Positions 44,942 to 51,526 of a stretch of DNA of 64,000 bases are shown piece by piece. The stretch lies in contig NZ_LT797710.1 of NCBI RefSeq assembly GCF_900009135.1, forward strand, positions 482,913-546,912, in the 5' to 3' direction. This DNA is from Planktothrix sp. PCC 11201. GTDB taxonomy: Bacteria > Cyanobacteriota > Cyanobacteriia > Cyanobacteriales > Microcoleaceae. The position numbers were made by a program, and so were the translations under genes. Under the pieces are notes generated by a model. That model saw only the letters and a program-made list of their open reading frames with translations. It did not search any database and had not been told where the DNA came from. How positions within the stretch are numbered: the stretch's first letter is position 1; each line of letters begins with the position of its first letter.

Positions 44942-45710
44942 ATGCTTAATCTGACTTACAACTACAAGTTAAAACCAACTAAAGAACAAATAGAAATAAT
45001 TGAGCATAATTTGGATGTTTGTAAATCCGTTTGGAATTATGCTCTGTATGAAAGAAAGCTTTGGTACAATTCTCGTAGTTGTAAGGTAAATATGTGTTCA
45101 CTCAATAGTGAATACATAGTAGAACCTTTTGAATACCCGTCATATCATAATCAATCTGCTAAGTTAACTTTAGCTAAGAAAAATAATGCTTTTCTCAAAT
45201 CTGGTAATGCTCAGGCAATGCAGCAAACCTTGAGAAAATTAGATCGGGCATTTAATGATATGAAAAGTAAGAATATGGGATTTCCTAGATATAAAAAGAA
45301 GATAAAATCTTTTAATCTACCCTGTTCTGCACAGACGGAAAAACTATCATTTCAGATTGGCTCATCAACTTTGTAGAGATGTGGGAATGATCTTTGTAGA
45401 AGATATCAATTTCACGTCATGGAGTCAAGGTTTATTTGGTCAGCAATCTTTAGATATGGGATTAGGACAATTTTTCACAATCCTAGAATATGTTAGCAGC
45501 CAAACTGACACTTATTTCTGCAAAGTAGATAAAAATTACACCTCACAGATTTGTCCTAATTGTGGGACAAACACAGGCAAAAAAGAGTTGAGTGAAAGAG
45601 TCCATCATTGTCATGAATGTGGATTTGAAATTGATAGAGATATTGCTGCTTCTATGGTGATTCGAGATAGAGGTTTAAATATTGTGGCGGCTGGTACATC
45701 CGTGACTTAA
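44942..45710 (+). pseudogene. TnpB (IS200/IS605 type) with internal deletion
   Basis: The N-terminal 135 residues (LTYNYKLKPTKEQIEIIEHN, SVWNYALYERKLWYNS) run out at about 45345. In another frame the C-terminal part resumes with YHFRLAHQLCRDVGMIFVED, then NYTSQICPNCGTNTGKKELS and CHECGFEIDRDIAASMVIRD. Roughly 130 residues, including the first RuvC Asp, are missing at the junction. The C-terminal zinc finger (two CxxC) and RuvC Glu and Asp remain. It is dead as a nuclease. It belongs to a different TnpB group from the intact copy at 8658. A left-end-like GC-rich stem (CCGTCC...GGATGG) lies at about 44822. Confidence 0.85.
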
Positions 45711-46324: not shown

Positions 46325-47377
46325 ATGAACAAAATCACTAGACGTGGGTTTCTCACCCTGGGAACAGCCTTAGCTGTAGTTGCTGCGGGTGGACTTAGCC
46401 CGATGGAGCCATCGCAAGCTAACCCCCAAGTTCTGAATGTCTACTCCGCCCGCCATTACGATACTGATAATCAGATCTATGAAAGTTTCACCCAAAAAAC
46501 TGGGATTAAGGTTAATCTGGTGGAAGGAAAAGCTGAGGAAATGGTAGAACGGATTAAGAGCGAAGGGGCCAATAGTCCGGCGGATATTCTGATTACCGTC
46601 GATGCGGGAAATCTTTGGAGAGCGCAACAACAGGGAATTTTTCAACCGATTTCTTCCGCTACTTTAAATCAAGTAATTCCAGCGAATTTAAGGGAACCGA
46701 ATGGTAATTGGTTTGGGTTTTCTAAACGGGCGAGGGTGATTGTTTATAATAAATCTAAGGTGAATCCGGCTCAACTTTCTACCTATGAAGATTTAGCCAA
46801 TCCTAAATGGAAAGGAAAAATAGTAGCTCGTTCTTCTAATAATATCTATAATCAATCCTTAGTAGCTTCGATGATTGGAGAAAGTGGAACGGCTCCTACG
46901 GAAACTTGGGTGAAAGGATTTGTGGCTAATTTTGCTAGACCCCCGGAGGGAAATGATGTTTCTCAAATTAAAGCTGTGGCGGCGGGTGTGGGACATTTAA
47001 CCCTAGCTAATACTTATTATTTAGGGCGTTTAGTCGCCTCTCCCAAACCCGAAGATAAAGCGATCGCCAGTAAGGTGGGTTTATTTTTCCCCAACCAAAG
47101 GGCCCAGGGAACTCACACCAATATTAGCGGGGCTGGGGTAATTAAAAATGCCCCCAATAAGGCGGGAGCAATTAAATTTTTAGAGCATTTAGCGAGTCCT
47201 GAAGCTCAAAAGATTTTTGCTCAAAGTGCTTTTGAATATCCTGTAGTTGCGGGTGTTCCTGTGTCTCCTGTGCTATCGAGTTTTGGCACATTTAAAAGTA
47301 ATCCGATCAATGTTGCAGCCTACGGAAAATTCAATTCCCAGGCGATTCAAATTATGGATCGCGCAGGTTGGAAATAA
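46325..47377 (+). CDS. futA: Fe(III) ABC transporter substrate-binding protein FutA/IdiA
   Basis: The 350-residue protein binds ferric iron for the FutABC importer or protects photosystem II (IdiA role). A Tat-type signal with twin Arg (TRRGFLTLGTAL) runs to about residue 32. The mature part starts VLNVYSARHYDTDNQIYESF, the FutA hallmark with one of the iron-ligand tyrosines. Further tyrosines occur in ANTYYLGRLV. Full length. The permease and ATPase genes are not adjacent, as usual in cyanobacteria. A stem-loop follows the stop. Confidence 0.95.
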   Translation: MNKITRRGFLTLGTALAVVAAGGLSPMEPSQANPQVLNVYSARHYDTDNQIYESFTQKTGIKVNLVEGKAEEMVERIKSEGANSPADILITVDAGNLWRAQQQGIFQPISSATLNQVIPANLREPNGNWFGFSKRARVIVYNKSKVNPAQLSTYEDLANPKWKGKIVARSSNNIYNQSLVASMIGESGTAPTETWVKGFVANFARPPEGNDVSQIKAVAAGVGHLTLANTYYLGRLVASPKPEDKAIASKVGLFFPNQRAQGTHTNISGAGVIKNAPNKAGAIKFLEHLASPEAQKIFAQSAFEYPVVAGVPVSPVLSSFGTFKSNPINVAAYGKFNSQAIQIMDRAGWK

Positions 47378-47387
47378 ACTTTGATAC

Positions 47388-47430
47388 GTTGTTGCGCTTT
47401 AGCGCTCTTTCTAGGGGCTAAAGCAACAAC
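47388..47430. terminator. Stem-loop downstream of futA
   Basis: GTTGTTGCGCTTTAGC (47388-47403) pairs with GCTAAAGCAACAAC (47417-47430) with two bulged bases. The same GTTGTTG...CAACAAC motif recurs at 55105-55209, so it is also a dispersed repeat. Confidence 0.6.
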
Positions 47431-47450
47431 AACTATTTTATCTATTTTGC

Positions 47451-50326
47451 GTTTCAATCCCTGAAAGGGATTATTGGTTATTGCAACATCACTGCTTTGG
47501 AGAAGGACTAATCCCCCTTGGTTTCAATCCCTGAAAGGGATTATTGGTTATTGCAACTATGAAGAAGATGCTCATTACATTTAATAAAATGAGTTTCAAT
47601 CCCTGAAAGGGATTATTGGTTATTGCAACCTGGAATTTAATCAATGAGTTTATCAACGATAGAGTTTCAATCCCTGAAAGGGATTATTGGTTATTGCAAC
47701 TCAGCTTGACTCGCACCGCCCATTATCTGCCTTTTGTTTCAATCCCTGAAAGGGATTATTGGTTATTGCAACAATCGGGGCTTGTCCACAACTACAGCCC
47801 GGACAAACTTTTGTTTCAATCCCTGAAAGGGATTATTGGTTATTGCAACTGGATCGCCTCAAATATTCCTCTGGTCTAAACAACGGTTTCAATCCCTGAA
47901 AGGGATTATTGGTTATTGCAACCTCTTTTAATAGTTGGTGCTTTCTAATGGGATTATTTTCTACGTTTCAATCCCTGAAAGGGATTATTGGTTATTGCAA
48001 CATCAAGAAGCCATCTTAGAATTTGCTATTAATGGGTTTCAATCCCTGAAAGGGATTATTGGTTATTGCAACGCGATCGCTTCCATGAATTGTGAGTTTT
48101 CCGATGTTTCAATCCCTGAAAGGGATTATTGGTTATTGCAACTTCTATTCAAGATAAAGTAGCGAAGATTGTGGAAGTTTCAATCCCTGAAAGGGATTAT
48201 TGGTTATTGCAACAATTCAAGATATTTTTGAAGCCACCGGAGGAGATCAGTTTCAATCCCTGAAAGGGATTATTGGTTATTGCAACAAGGGCGAAGATGT
48301 TTCATAGTTCCAATACATACAGTTTCAATCCCTGAAAGGGATTATTGGTTATTGCAACCGTATCCTTGGTTAGACTGGGCTATAGACTTCCTGGTTTCAA
48401 TCCCTGAAAGGGATTATTGGTTATTGCAACCGTCTCTGGCAATTAATCCCCTATTGGCAATTTTCGGTTTCAATCCCTGAAAGGGATTATTGGTTATTGC
48501 AACTTGAAGCCTATAGTCTAAGTTGGAGCGTTTTGTCGTTTCAATCCCTGAAAGGGATTATTGGTTATTGCAACCAATTAAAAGCATCTAAAGATATGGC
48601 AGATAGTTTGTTTCAATCCCTGAAAGGGATTATTGGTTATTGCAACCAAAGATTGCCCCTAGTCGAGTGAGATTAATCATTTCGTTTCAATCCCTGAAAG
48701 GGATTATTGGTTATTGCAACCCTGGCAACAGATGGGATTCCCTAGAGTTGAGTCGGTTTCAATCCCTGAAAGGGATTATTGGTTATTGCAACCACCAACC
48801 CTCACCTAATACCCGATACTGAATCTTTGTTTCAATCCCTGAAAGGGATTATTGGTTATTGCAACCTTTTCACCCGCCACAACTCCAATCGCAGGAACCT
48901 GTTTCAATCCCTGAAAGGGATTATTGGTTATTGCAACCTAGAAAACATCAAAGCGCCTGCCTCGTCAAATAAGTTTCAATCCCTGAAAGGGATTATTGGT
49001 TATTGCAACCGCGTAGTAATCCCCCCATTGACCGCCGTTAATAATGTTTCAATCCCTGAAAGGGATTATTGGTTATTGCAACCAATATCCGAATCGTAAC
49101 AAAGTTTAATGTTGAACGTTTCAATCCCTGAAAGGGATTATTGGTTATTGCAACCACTATTCACCTTAAAGATGGTATATCATGTTGGGTGTTTCAATCC
49201 CTGAAAGGGATTATTGGTTATTGCAACCCTGTTCCGTTGAGCCGCTTTCTCTCAAATCCGAAGTTTCAATCCCTGAAAGGGATTATTGGTTATTGCAACC
49301 TGTGGCGCTATTAGTTTGATTGGGAATAAAACCGGAATGTTTCAATCCCTGAAAGGGATTATTGGTTATTGCAACCTTTATTGCGTCTCAAGGATATATC
49401 TCTAGGGACAGATGTTTCAATCCCTGAAAGGGATTATTGGTTATTGCAACCAAGGGTCAGGGCGAGGATTGTCCGGTTTAAAGCGTTTCAATCCCTGAAA
49501 GGGATTATTGGTTATTGCAACCGCCAAACATTAAGAGTAAATTCCAGGCCATTAAAGGTGTTTCAATCCCTGAAAGGGATTATTGGTTATTGCAACCCCT
49601 AATTTTCTCATGGCACGGGGAATTCCATACCGTTTCAATCCCTGAAAGGGATTATTGGTTATTGCAACCGATATTGCCAGCCAGAAGAGCCAGGCAGGTC
49701 GCAGTTTCAATCCCTGAAAGGGATTATTGGTTATTGCAACCTAGAAAGGATTCAGAGCTAACGTCTCTATCAATGGGTTTCAATCCCTGAAAGGGATTAT
49801 TGGTTATTGCAACCAACAGGGGCGGGAGATTCGGGAATATTTCAAAGTAGGTTTCAATCCCTGAAAGGGATTATTGGTTATTGCAACCTTGCAAACGCCG
49901 TCGCGTTTACCATTTGTAATTCTGTTTCAATCCCTGAAAGGGATTATTGGTTATTGCAACCCACTCGAACGGGCTAACAAATATCCCAAGTTTTTTCGTT
50001 TCAATCCCTGAAAGGGATTATTGGTTATTGCAACCAATCACGGAGGCAACCTTATTCCTATATAGCTCAAGTTTCAATCCCTGAAAGGGATTATTGGTTA
50101 TTGCAACCTAAATTTTCCATCTTTATCAAAATCAATCCGAGAATGTTTCAATCCCTGAAAGGGATTATTGGTTATTGCAACCGAATGATAGCGACCCACA
50201 GCCCGAAACGGATGAAGTTTCAATCCCTGAAAGGGATTATTGGTTATTGCAACCATCGCGATCGCTTCCCATCTTAAAGGTTATTTTGAGTTTCAATCCC
50301 TGAAAGGGATTATTGGTTATTGCAAC
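47451..50326 (-). CRISPR. CRISPR array, 40 repeats of 37 nt and 39 spacers
   Basis: All 40 repeats are identical: on the plus strand they start GTTTCAATCCCTG and end TTGGTTATTGCAAC. Spacers are 33-42 nt, mostly 34-37. Read on the minus strand the repeat ends in ATTGAAAC, the 8-nt handle typical of type I-D/III-like cyanobacterial crRNAs, so I assign transcription to the minus strand with the leader on the right. No cas gene lies in the 47 kb to the left or 13 kb to the right. The base after the repeat is C behind repeats 16-40 but mixed behind 1-15. No degenerate end repeat is seen on either side. Confidence 0.98.
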
Positions 50327-50590
50327 CCGCAGGCTTCTGAAACCCTTGATATATTTAGTTTTCGAGGTACGATTCCGACAACCTGATCGTAAAGTACCAT
50401 TTCAGCCATCGACTTGTCAACACGCAAAAATAAAAAAACGCCAAAACCCCATTCCCATAAGGTATTCAAGAATCGCGCCAACCTCCTTGAAGCCTTGAGA
50501 CACCTCAAACCCATAATAGATAAACCTTTCAGACCCAAAAATCCCCCTCCAATTTTGAACAGCTATAGGTTAGCGCAAACCATATCCTAG
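50327..50590 (-). promoter_or_regulatory. Candidate CRISPR leader
   Basis: If the array is read leftward, the leader is the 264-bp gap between the last repeat and the end of era. It contains A/T-rich runs (AAAAATAAAAAAACG at about 50426). The inverted-repeat interior of the CRISPR repeat does not continue into it. Two marginal ORFs here (61 and 73 codons) are not protein-like. Confidence 0.55.
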
Positions 50591-50596
50591 AAACGG

Positions 50597-51526
50597 CTAT
50601 TCAACCTGATAACCCAAATCCGCCAACTGACTGCGGGACTGACGCCATTTCGGTTGCACCTTCACAAATAACTCCAAATAGACCTTACCATCAATCAACT
50701 TTTGAATCTGTTGGCGGGCATCACTGCCAATGGTTTTCAACATACTGCCCTGATGGCCAATTAAAATTCCCTTTTGGGAAGGACGCTCAACATGAATAGT
50801 AGATAAAATCCGAGTAATTTTCGGGTCTTCCTCCACCCGGTCAACGGAAATCGCTACAGAATGGGGTACCTCCTCCCGGGTGTGGAGTAAAATCTGCTCT
50901 CGAATTAGTTCCCCAATGATGAAGCGTTCCGGCTGATCCGTTACCAAATCTGGGGGATAATAATAGGGGCCAGGATCTAAACGATCTATTAATAATTGTT
51001 GCAAATCATTGACACCCTCCCCCGTTAATGCTGAAAACTTGACCACGGGCCATTCATGGGGTTGGGCCAGTTGACCATAACTCCGGTCAATAATCACCGT
51101 ATCCTCCGGTTGTTGATCCAGTTTATTCATCCCCAGAATCACCGGAATCTTGACTTGTTCGAGTAACTCAATAATATAGCGATCGCCACCTCCAGCCTCC
51201 ACAGACCCATCGACCACCAACAACAGAACATCAACGGAGGAAATCGCCGACTTGGCATTTTGTACCAAAACCTTACCCAGTTGATGATGGGGTTTATGAA
51301 TTCCCGGGGTATCGACAAAAATAATTTGAGCCTCAGCCGTGGTCAGAATCCCCCGCAGACGGTTGCGCGTCGTTTGAGCCACGGGGGAAGTAATGGCGAT
51401 TTTCTGACCCACCATCTGATTCATCAAAGTCGATTTCCCCACATTCGGGCGACCAATAATTCCGACAAACCCCGACTTATATCCCTCTGGCGGTAAGGGA
51501 ATTGTTACACCTTCAGACCCATCCAT
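50597..51526 (-). CDS. era: GTPase Era
   Basis: The 309-residue GTPase binds 16S rRNA during 30S assembly. G-motifs are GRPNVGKST, the effector-region Thr, DTPGIH and NKLD. The C-terminal KH domain has RPSQKGILIGHQGSMLKTIG. It lies directly upstream of the CRISPR leader on the same strand, so its transcript may run into the array. Full length. Confidence 0.96.
   Translation of the reverse strand: MDGSEGVTIPLPPEGYKSGFVGIIGRPNVGKSTLMNQMVGQKIAITSPVAQTTRNRLRGILTTAEAQIIFVDTPGIHKPHHQLGKVLVQNAKSAISSVDVLLLVVDGSVEAGGGDRYIIELLEQVKIPVILGMNKLDQQPEDTVIIDRSYGQLAQPHEWPVVKFSALTGEGVNDLQQLLIDRLDPGPYYYPPDLVTDQPERFIIGELIREQILLHTREEVPHSVAISVDRVEEDPKITRILSTIHVERPSQKGILIGHQGSMLKTIGSDARQQIQKLIDGKVYLELFVKVQPKWRQSRSQLADLGYQVE

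Follow-up and report, generated by a model that had tools for sequence, protein, structure and literature searches.

A CRISPR array of Planktothrix sp. PCC 11201 in which a base very probably inserted at the leader-repeat border was copied by each later acquisition

The window, which is the whole 64,000-nucleotide stretch of Planktothrix sp. PCC 11201 DNA analyzed here, carries a stand-alone CRISPR array composed of an older and a newer part, a conserved leader and two flanking genes (Table 1). An exact repeat scan of the window located 40 exact copies of the 37-nt repeat GTTTCAATCCCTGAAAGGGATTATTGGTTATTGCAAC at 47451-50326, the last of them at 50290-50326. These copies and the series of bases that follow them match the first-pass annotation letter for letter, and its coordinates were right, although the proper end of the array feature is 50327, one base past the 50326 noted there. 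We take the open reading frame to the right of the array to be an era-like GTPase gene and that to the left to be the gene of an iron-type ABC-transporter substrate-binding protein, both names being assigned from the look of the sequences; the 3' part of the latter (47083-47376) adjoins the array in the congener G008 too. Two open reading frames at 44942-45710 resemble a TnpB-like protein divided into an N- and a C-terminal part.

Table 1. Features of the array and its surroundings, in window coordinates
Feature	Position	Strand	Remark
Left neighbor, presumed iron-type ABC-transporter substrate-binding protein gene	46325..47377	+	ORF
Older array part, repeats 1-15 (37 nt) with spacers 1-15	47451..48537	-	mixed next base on the plus strand
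Newer array part, repeats 16-40, 38-nt repeats with fixed C on the plus strand	48538..50327	-	25 of 25
Oldest extra C, behind repeat 16 (48538-48574)	48575..48575	.	marks the insertion point in the array history
Extra C at the leader-repeat junction	50327..50327	.	absent from 14 of 15 other readable same-leader junctions
Conserved leader, plus strand CGCAGGCTTCTGAAACCCTTGATATATTT...	50328..50571	-	common to other sites in the genome and five congeners
Right neighbor, presumed era-like GTPase gene	50597..51526	-	ORF; marks the same array site in G008 and G005

The reverse complement of the repeat ends in GATTGAAAC, and its ATTGAAAC end, together with the position of the leader, points to the minus strand as the transcribed one. 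Since the leader lies to the right of repeat 40 (R40), R1 would be the oldest repeat, and the fixed base described below becomes a G on the sense strand, at the leader side of each repeat. The earlier placement of the newest spacers at the right end of the array is thus supported by the shared leader that sits there.

The array consists of two phases. The plus-strand base that follows R1-15 is A, T, C, T, A, T, C, A, G, T, A, A, C, C and T in turn (A5 T5 C4 G1), and that which follows R16-40 is C in 25 of 25 cases, comprising 24 spacers and the flank of R40. The repeat is therefore 37 nt long in all 15 older units and 38 nt long in all 25 newer ones, the newer repeat on the sense strand being G + GTTGCAATAACCAATAATCCCTTTCAGGGATTGAAAC, and its far end is unchanged. 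As controls, 233 spacers from 13 sister arrays were counted at exact repeats only, leaving out the first two repeats of L011 and the two repeat halves of L009 that are cut by an insertion sequence; the next base was T in 76, C in 61, A in 55 and G in 41, so that C makes up 26%. At this frequency, 24 consecutive C would have a chance probability of about 1e-14. In the 13 sister arrays no base occurred more than 4 times in succession at this position, and in another 26 array pieces from the order, with 489 units, the longest run was 5; by these base frequencies and run lengths the block of 24 C is not a product of chance. Folded alone, the 38-nt sense repeat differs from the 37-nt form by an additional small 5' hairpin (-11.2 vs -8.0 kcal/mol).

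Spacer lengths are consistent with assigning the additional base to the repeat in the newer part only. Compared with the 233 control spacers, counting the C as repeat improves the fit of the new spacers by 2.0 natural-log units, an advantage of about 7 to 1 that is weak taken alone, and counting no extra base improves that of the old spacers by 4.0 natural-log units (about 55 to 1).

The leader was found at 17 places including the window, in 6 of the 59 genomes searched; four of these places, with the window counted, are in this genome, and the leader occurs in 5 of 9 congeners. The window leader matches that of G004:C171 at 88.6% over 245 bp (50327-50571). At 14 of the 16 other places the 37-nt repeat directly abuts the leader, which begins CGCAGG (11), CGTAGG (2) or AGCGGG (1, on contig C19 of the same genome). 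The window junction reads GCAAC-C-CGCAGG, one base more than at those 14, and because it forms a CCC run, any of its C may be the new one. The junction of G004:C171 is unreadable, the contig beginning there, which leaves 15 readable junctions of 16, and the one remaining, G005:C144, also has the extra C; its contig starts inside the repeat, and the array is lost at the contig end. In an alignment of 16 leaders the extra C occupies a single gap column; six rows of this alignment are cut off before the repeat, and their junctions were read in a separate junction comparison. At the fourth array of the leader family in this genome (L032, G000:C19) the first leader base is A, not C, and this A is uncopied in the array.

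Arrays also occupy the same chromosomal place in two congeners, and both have a normal junction. That of G008 is matched to the window at both flanks (88% and 85%) and that of G005 at the right flank (85.6%). The same-place arrays (L031 and L021, compared with window 47083-51509) have kept the leader, and their repeat sequences differ from that of the window.

The contig also carries a type I-D operon, about 100 kb to the right of the window array and next to a sister array with the same leader. Best matches over curated NCBIfam cut-offs were obtained for Cas1d (445 vs a cut-off of 385 bits), Cas2, Cas4, Cas6, Csc1, Csc2, the C-terminal part of Csc3 and Cas3'; the Csc3 call comes from a scanned 121-aa C-terminal ORF, the remainder of the protein running across two loci. 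The shared leader and the repeat family point to this type I-D set as the machinery that serves the window array, most likely with its cas1, cas2 and cas4 acting in trans. The first-pass annotation had raised the presence of cas4 or of another Cas1-Cas2: cas4 is present beside cas1, and three further cas1 genes, making four in the genome, lie beside arrays with other repeats, none of them reaching a subtype cut-off when the profile-matched parts (281-287 aa) were scanned.

We consider it about 95% probable that a single-base insertion arose at the leader-repeat border and was copied by each later acquisition. The window junction is one base longer and the same-place junctions of G008 and G005 are normal, so the insertion would have taken place while R16 was the leader-proximal repeat. 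In this model a single base would have been added to a short C run (a G run on the sense strand) at the border between the leader and R16. In each later acquisition Cas1-Cas2 would then make the leader-side cut in its normal position, directly behind the conserved leader end (...CCTGCG^ on the sense strand), and the spacer-side cut at the normal repeat end, ...GATTGAAAC^. With both cuts at their usual ends, 38 bp would be duplicated instead of 37, and this 24 times running. There is a single mutational event, and the 24 copies are separate acquisitions, not independent origins. One of the two options given in the first-pass annotation, that the leader-proximal repeat became 38 nt long and was then copied, is directly supported by the additional C of the junction relative to 14 of the 15 same-leader junctions.

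A very improbable alternative is that R16-40 and the leader were recombined in from another array of the lineage, one that already bore the insertion, the switch being the recombination joint. It would be favored by the occurrence of family arrays with shared leaders at several places per genome, and by the extra C at another place in G005:C144. However, all 40 repeats of the window array share one 37-nt core, unlike the genome's three other leader-bearing arrays, and the exchange requires an additional event.

In E. coli type I-E the last base of the repeat is PAM-derived, and the other option of the first-pass annotation was that acquisition had begun to keep such a base, through changed prespacer processing or a changed Cas1-Cas2 partner. 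The sharpness of the switch within the array and the four cas1 genes of the genome would fit this reading, but we regard it as very unlikely, as the leader junction itself has gained the base, which spacer processing would not bring about, cas4 is present, and no such base is seen in the sister arrays that share the leader, three of which belong to this genome. In addition, the protospacer motif of type I-D is given as 5'-GTN (PMC10212523) and, given the leader side, the fixed base is then not on the PAM side of the spacer but at the opposite end. The two adaptation regimes that had been read into the switch, with a change of Cas1-Cas2 partner or the loss of a PAM-processing factor, are likewise not supported, since the leader carries the base, cas4 lies beside cas1 and one insertion suffices. 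The array can be explained without a second acquisition regime, a Cas1-Cas2 swap or a PAM-derived base. That the base is an assembly or sequencing artefact, as its lengthening of a CC run at the junction might suggest, is extremely improbable, for the base is found at 24 repeat-spacer borders whose spacers differ, and all of these belong to one uninterrupted block on the leader side.

Searches for protospacers gave none. BLAST of the whole window array against phages returned two records, both of Nostoc phages with multi-piece matches of 73-75%, and no protospacer; judged from these matches, the two phages, YongM and N1 (MT426122.1, KU234532.1), probably carry CRISPR arrays with a related repeat. 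Against plasmids, the array likewise gave no protospacer, the 10 cyanobacterial records returned being read as arrays from the query positions. The sister array L009 matched the same two phages and no protospacer; three other matches, each in a single piece, to two Geobacillus virus records and one record of a Listeria phage were weak (E 0.01-0.1) and were taken as chance. A scan of IMG/VR with 22-24-nt cores, taken from 8 of the 24 new spacers, gave matches for 0 of 8.

A second instance of inherited repeat lengthening may exist in G005. At G005:C107:1-372 (L068), which has the same repeat as G005:C144, the next base in five units at a contig end is C for the three repeats nearest the leader and G for the two older repeats. 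Three C would arise by chance at about 2%, and this piece, on its own contig separate from G005:C144, may be a further example of such a switch. A scan for the junction in 84,980 species genomes found four stretches, three of them in the uncultured Oscillatoriales MAG KTt_bin-1839, which matches G005, and one in Methylonatrum kenyense. Survey pieces of about 3 kb, one per genome, which cover long arrays in part, were taken at 30 loci from 148 genomes of the order and were required to hold at least 5 repeats; L076, L085, L086 and L090 gave no array and were dropped. None of the 26 array pieces has a switch to a fixed base, and a fixed base beyond the 37 nt was found in 0 of these 26 and in 0 of the 13 sister arrays.

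Propagated repeat mutations are a known phenomenon, in which an insertion, deletion or substitution in the duplicated repeat is copied into later repeats (PMC4869251, CRISPRDetect). The event described here is ordinary copying of this known kind and a new example of it; it is distinguished by a base that falls exactly on the leader-repeat border and so tests the landmark of the first cut. Among titles and the openings of abstracts, the literature yielded no naturally occurring insertion at the leader junction of a type I-D array. Stepwise change of the same copying kind, by two substitutions, is seen in the same genome at the old end of the C1 array (L011:13076-14357), where repeat 1 is identical to that of the array next to the type I-D operon, repeat 2 is one base off and repeats 3-18 are a second base off. 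Should such changes build up as old units disappear, the differing repeats of same-place arrays in congeners would be expected, and the window array may be a snapshot of repeat turnover that happened to alter length. In the sister array L009, two partial repeats enclose an IS630-family transposase (L009:11544-12601; G000:C28, about 630.5-631.6 kb), with a 217-aa ORF over the NCBIfam cut-off beside a 135-aa ORF, and the element appears to split the array into blocks of 33 and 23 whole repeats.

The window array can be regarded as an insertion mutant of natural origin whose handling by the type I-D integrase has been read out 24 times; it thereby tests how this integrase locates both of its cut sites. 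A leader-side cut measured from inside the repeat is excluded, as the extra base would then stay in the leader, yet it was copied 24 times of 24. A second cut fixed at 37 bp from the first is excluded as well; the far sense C would have been lost, and it is kept in 40 of 40 repeats. With both simple ruler models excluded for these 24 acquisitions, what is left is that the leader end determines the first cut and the far part of the repeat the second, the landmark for the latter being either the terminal GAAAC or an internal motif; the absence of slips in 24 bounds slippage at less than about 12% per acquisition. It is thus probable that the type I-D Cas4-Cas1-Cas2 integrase works without a fixed 37-bp ruler, the leader directing the first cut and the far repeat side the second, that repeat length is inherited by copying, and that the turnover of repeats at conserved array sites of the genus may be driven in this way. 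The guiding factors and landmarks of the integrase in types I-A, I-D and I-G are called unknown in a passage of a 2026 paper (PMC13034035). For other arrays with a fixed base beside the repeat, the present case suggests that the leader junction be checked before the base is ascribed to a PAM or to a new adaptation regime.

A close parallel is with engineered mutants of the Streptococcus thermophilus type II-A system, in which an insertion upstream of the ruler made the duplicated repeat one longer and left the first cut unchanged, and the natural second border was still used at a relatively high level in vivo (PMC6895254). A longer duplicated repeat with the first cut held would be common to both systems. 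The S. thermophilus cases are laboratory mutants of type II-A with the insertion within the repeat and some products at the old border, whereas the window array is natural, belongs to the type I-D family and has its insertion at the border, with 24 successive acquisitions and no slip. Tolerance of a longer repeat is not universal, as changes of repeat length sharply lowered full-site integration in type V-A (PMC13034035), and against the behavior described for types II-A and V-A in these sources, 24 of 24 without a slip is cleaner than would be expected. In types I-E and I-B, rulers control repeat size (Goren 2016; Wang 2016, as cited in PMC6895254). As far as that account goes, repeat length is set by landmarks there as in the window array, with no single fixed span; however, the landmarks of types I-E and I-B lie within the repeat, whereas the leader side of the window array appears to follow the leader.
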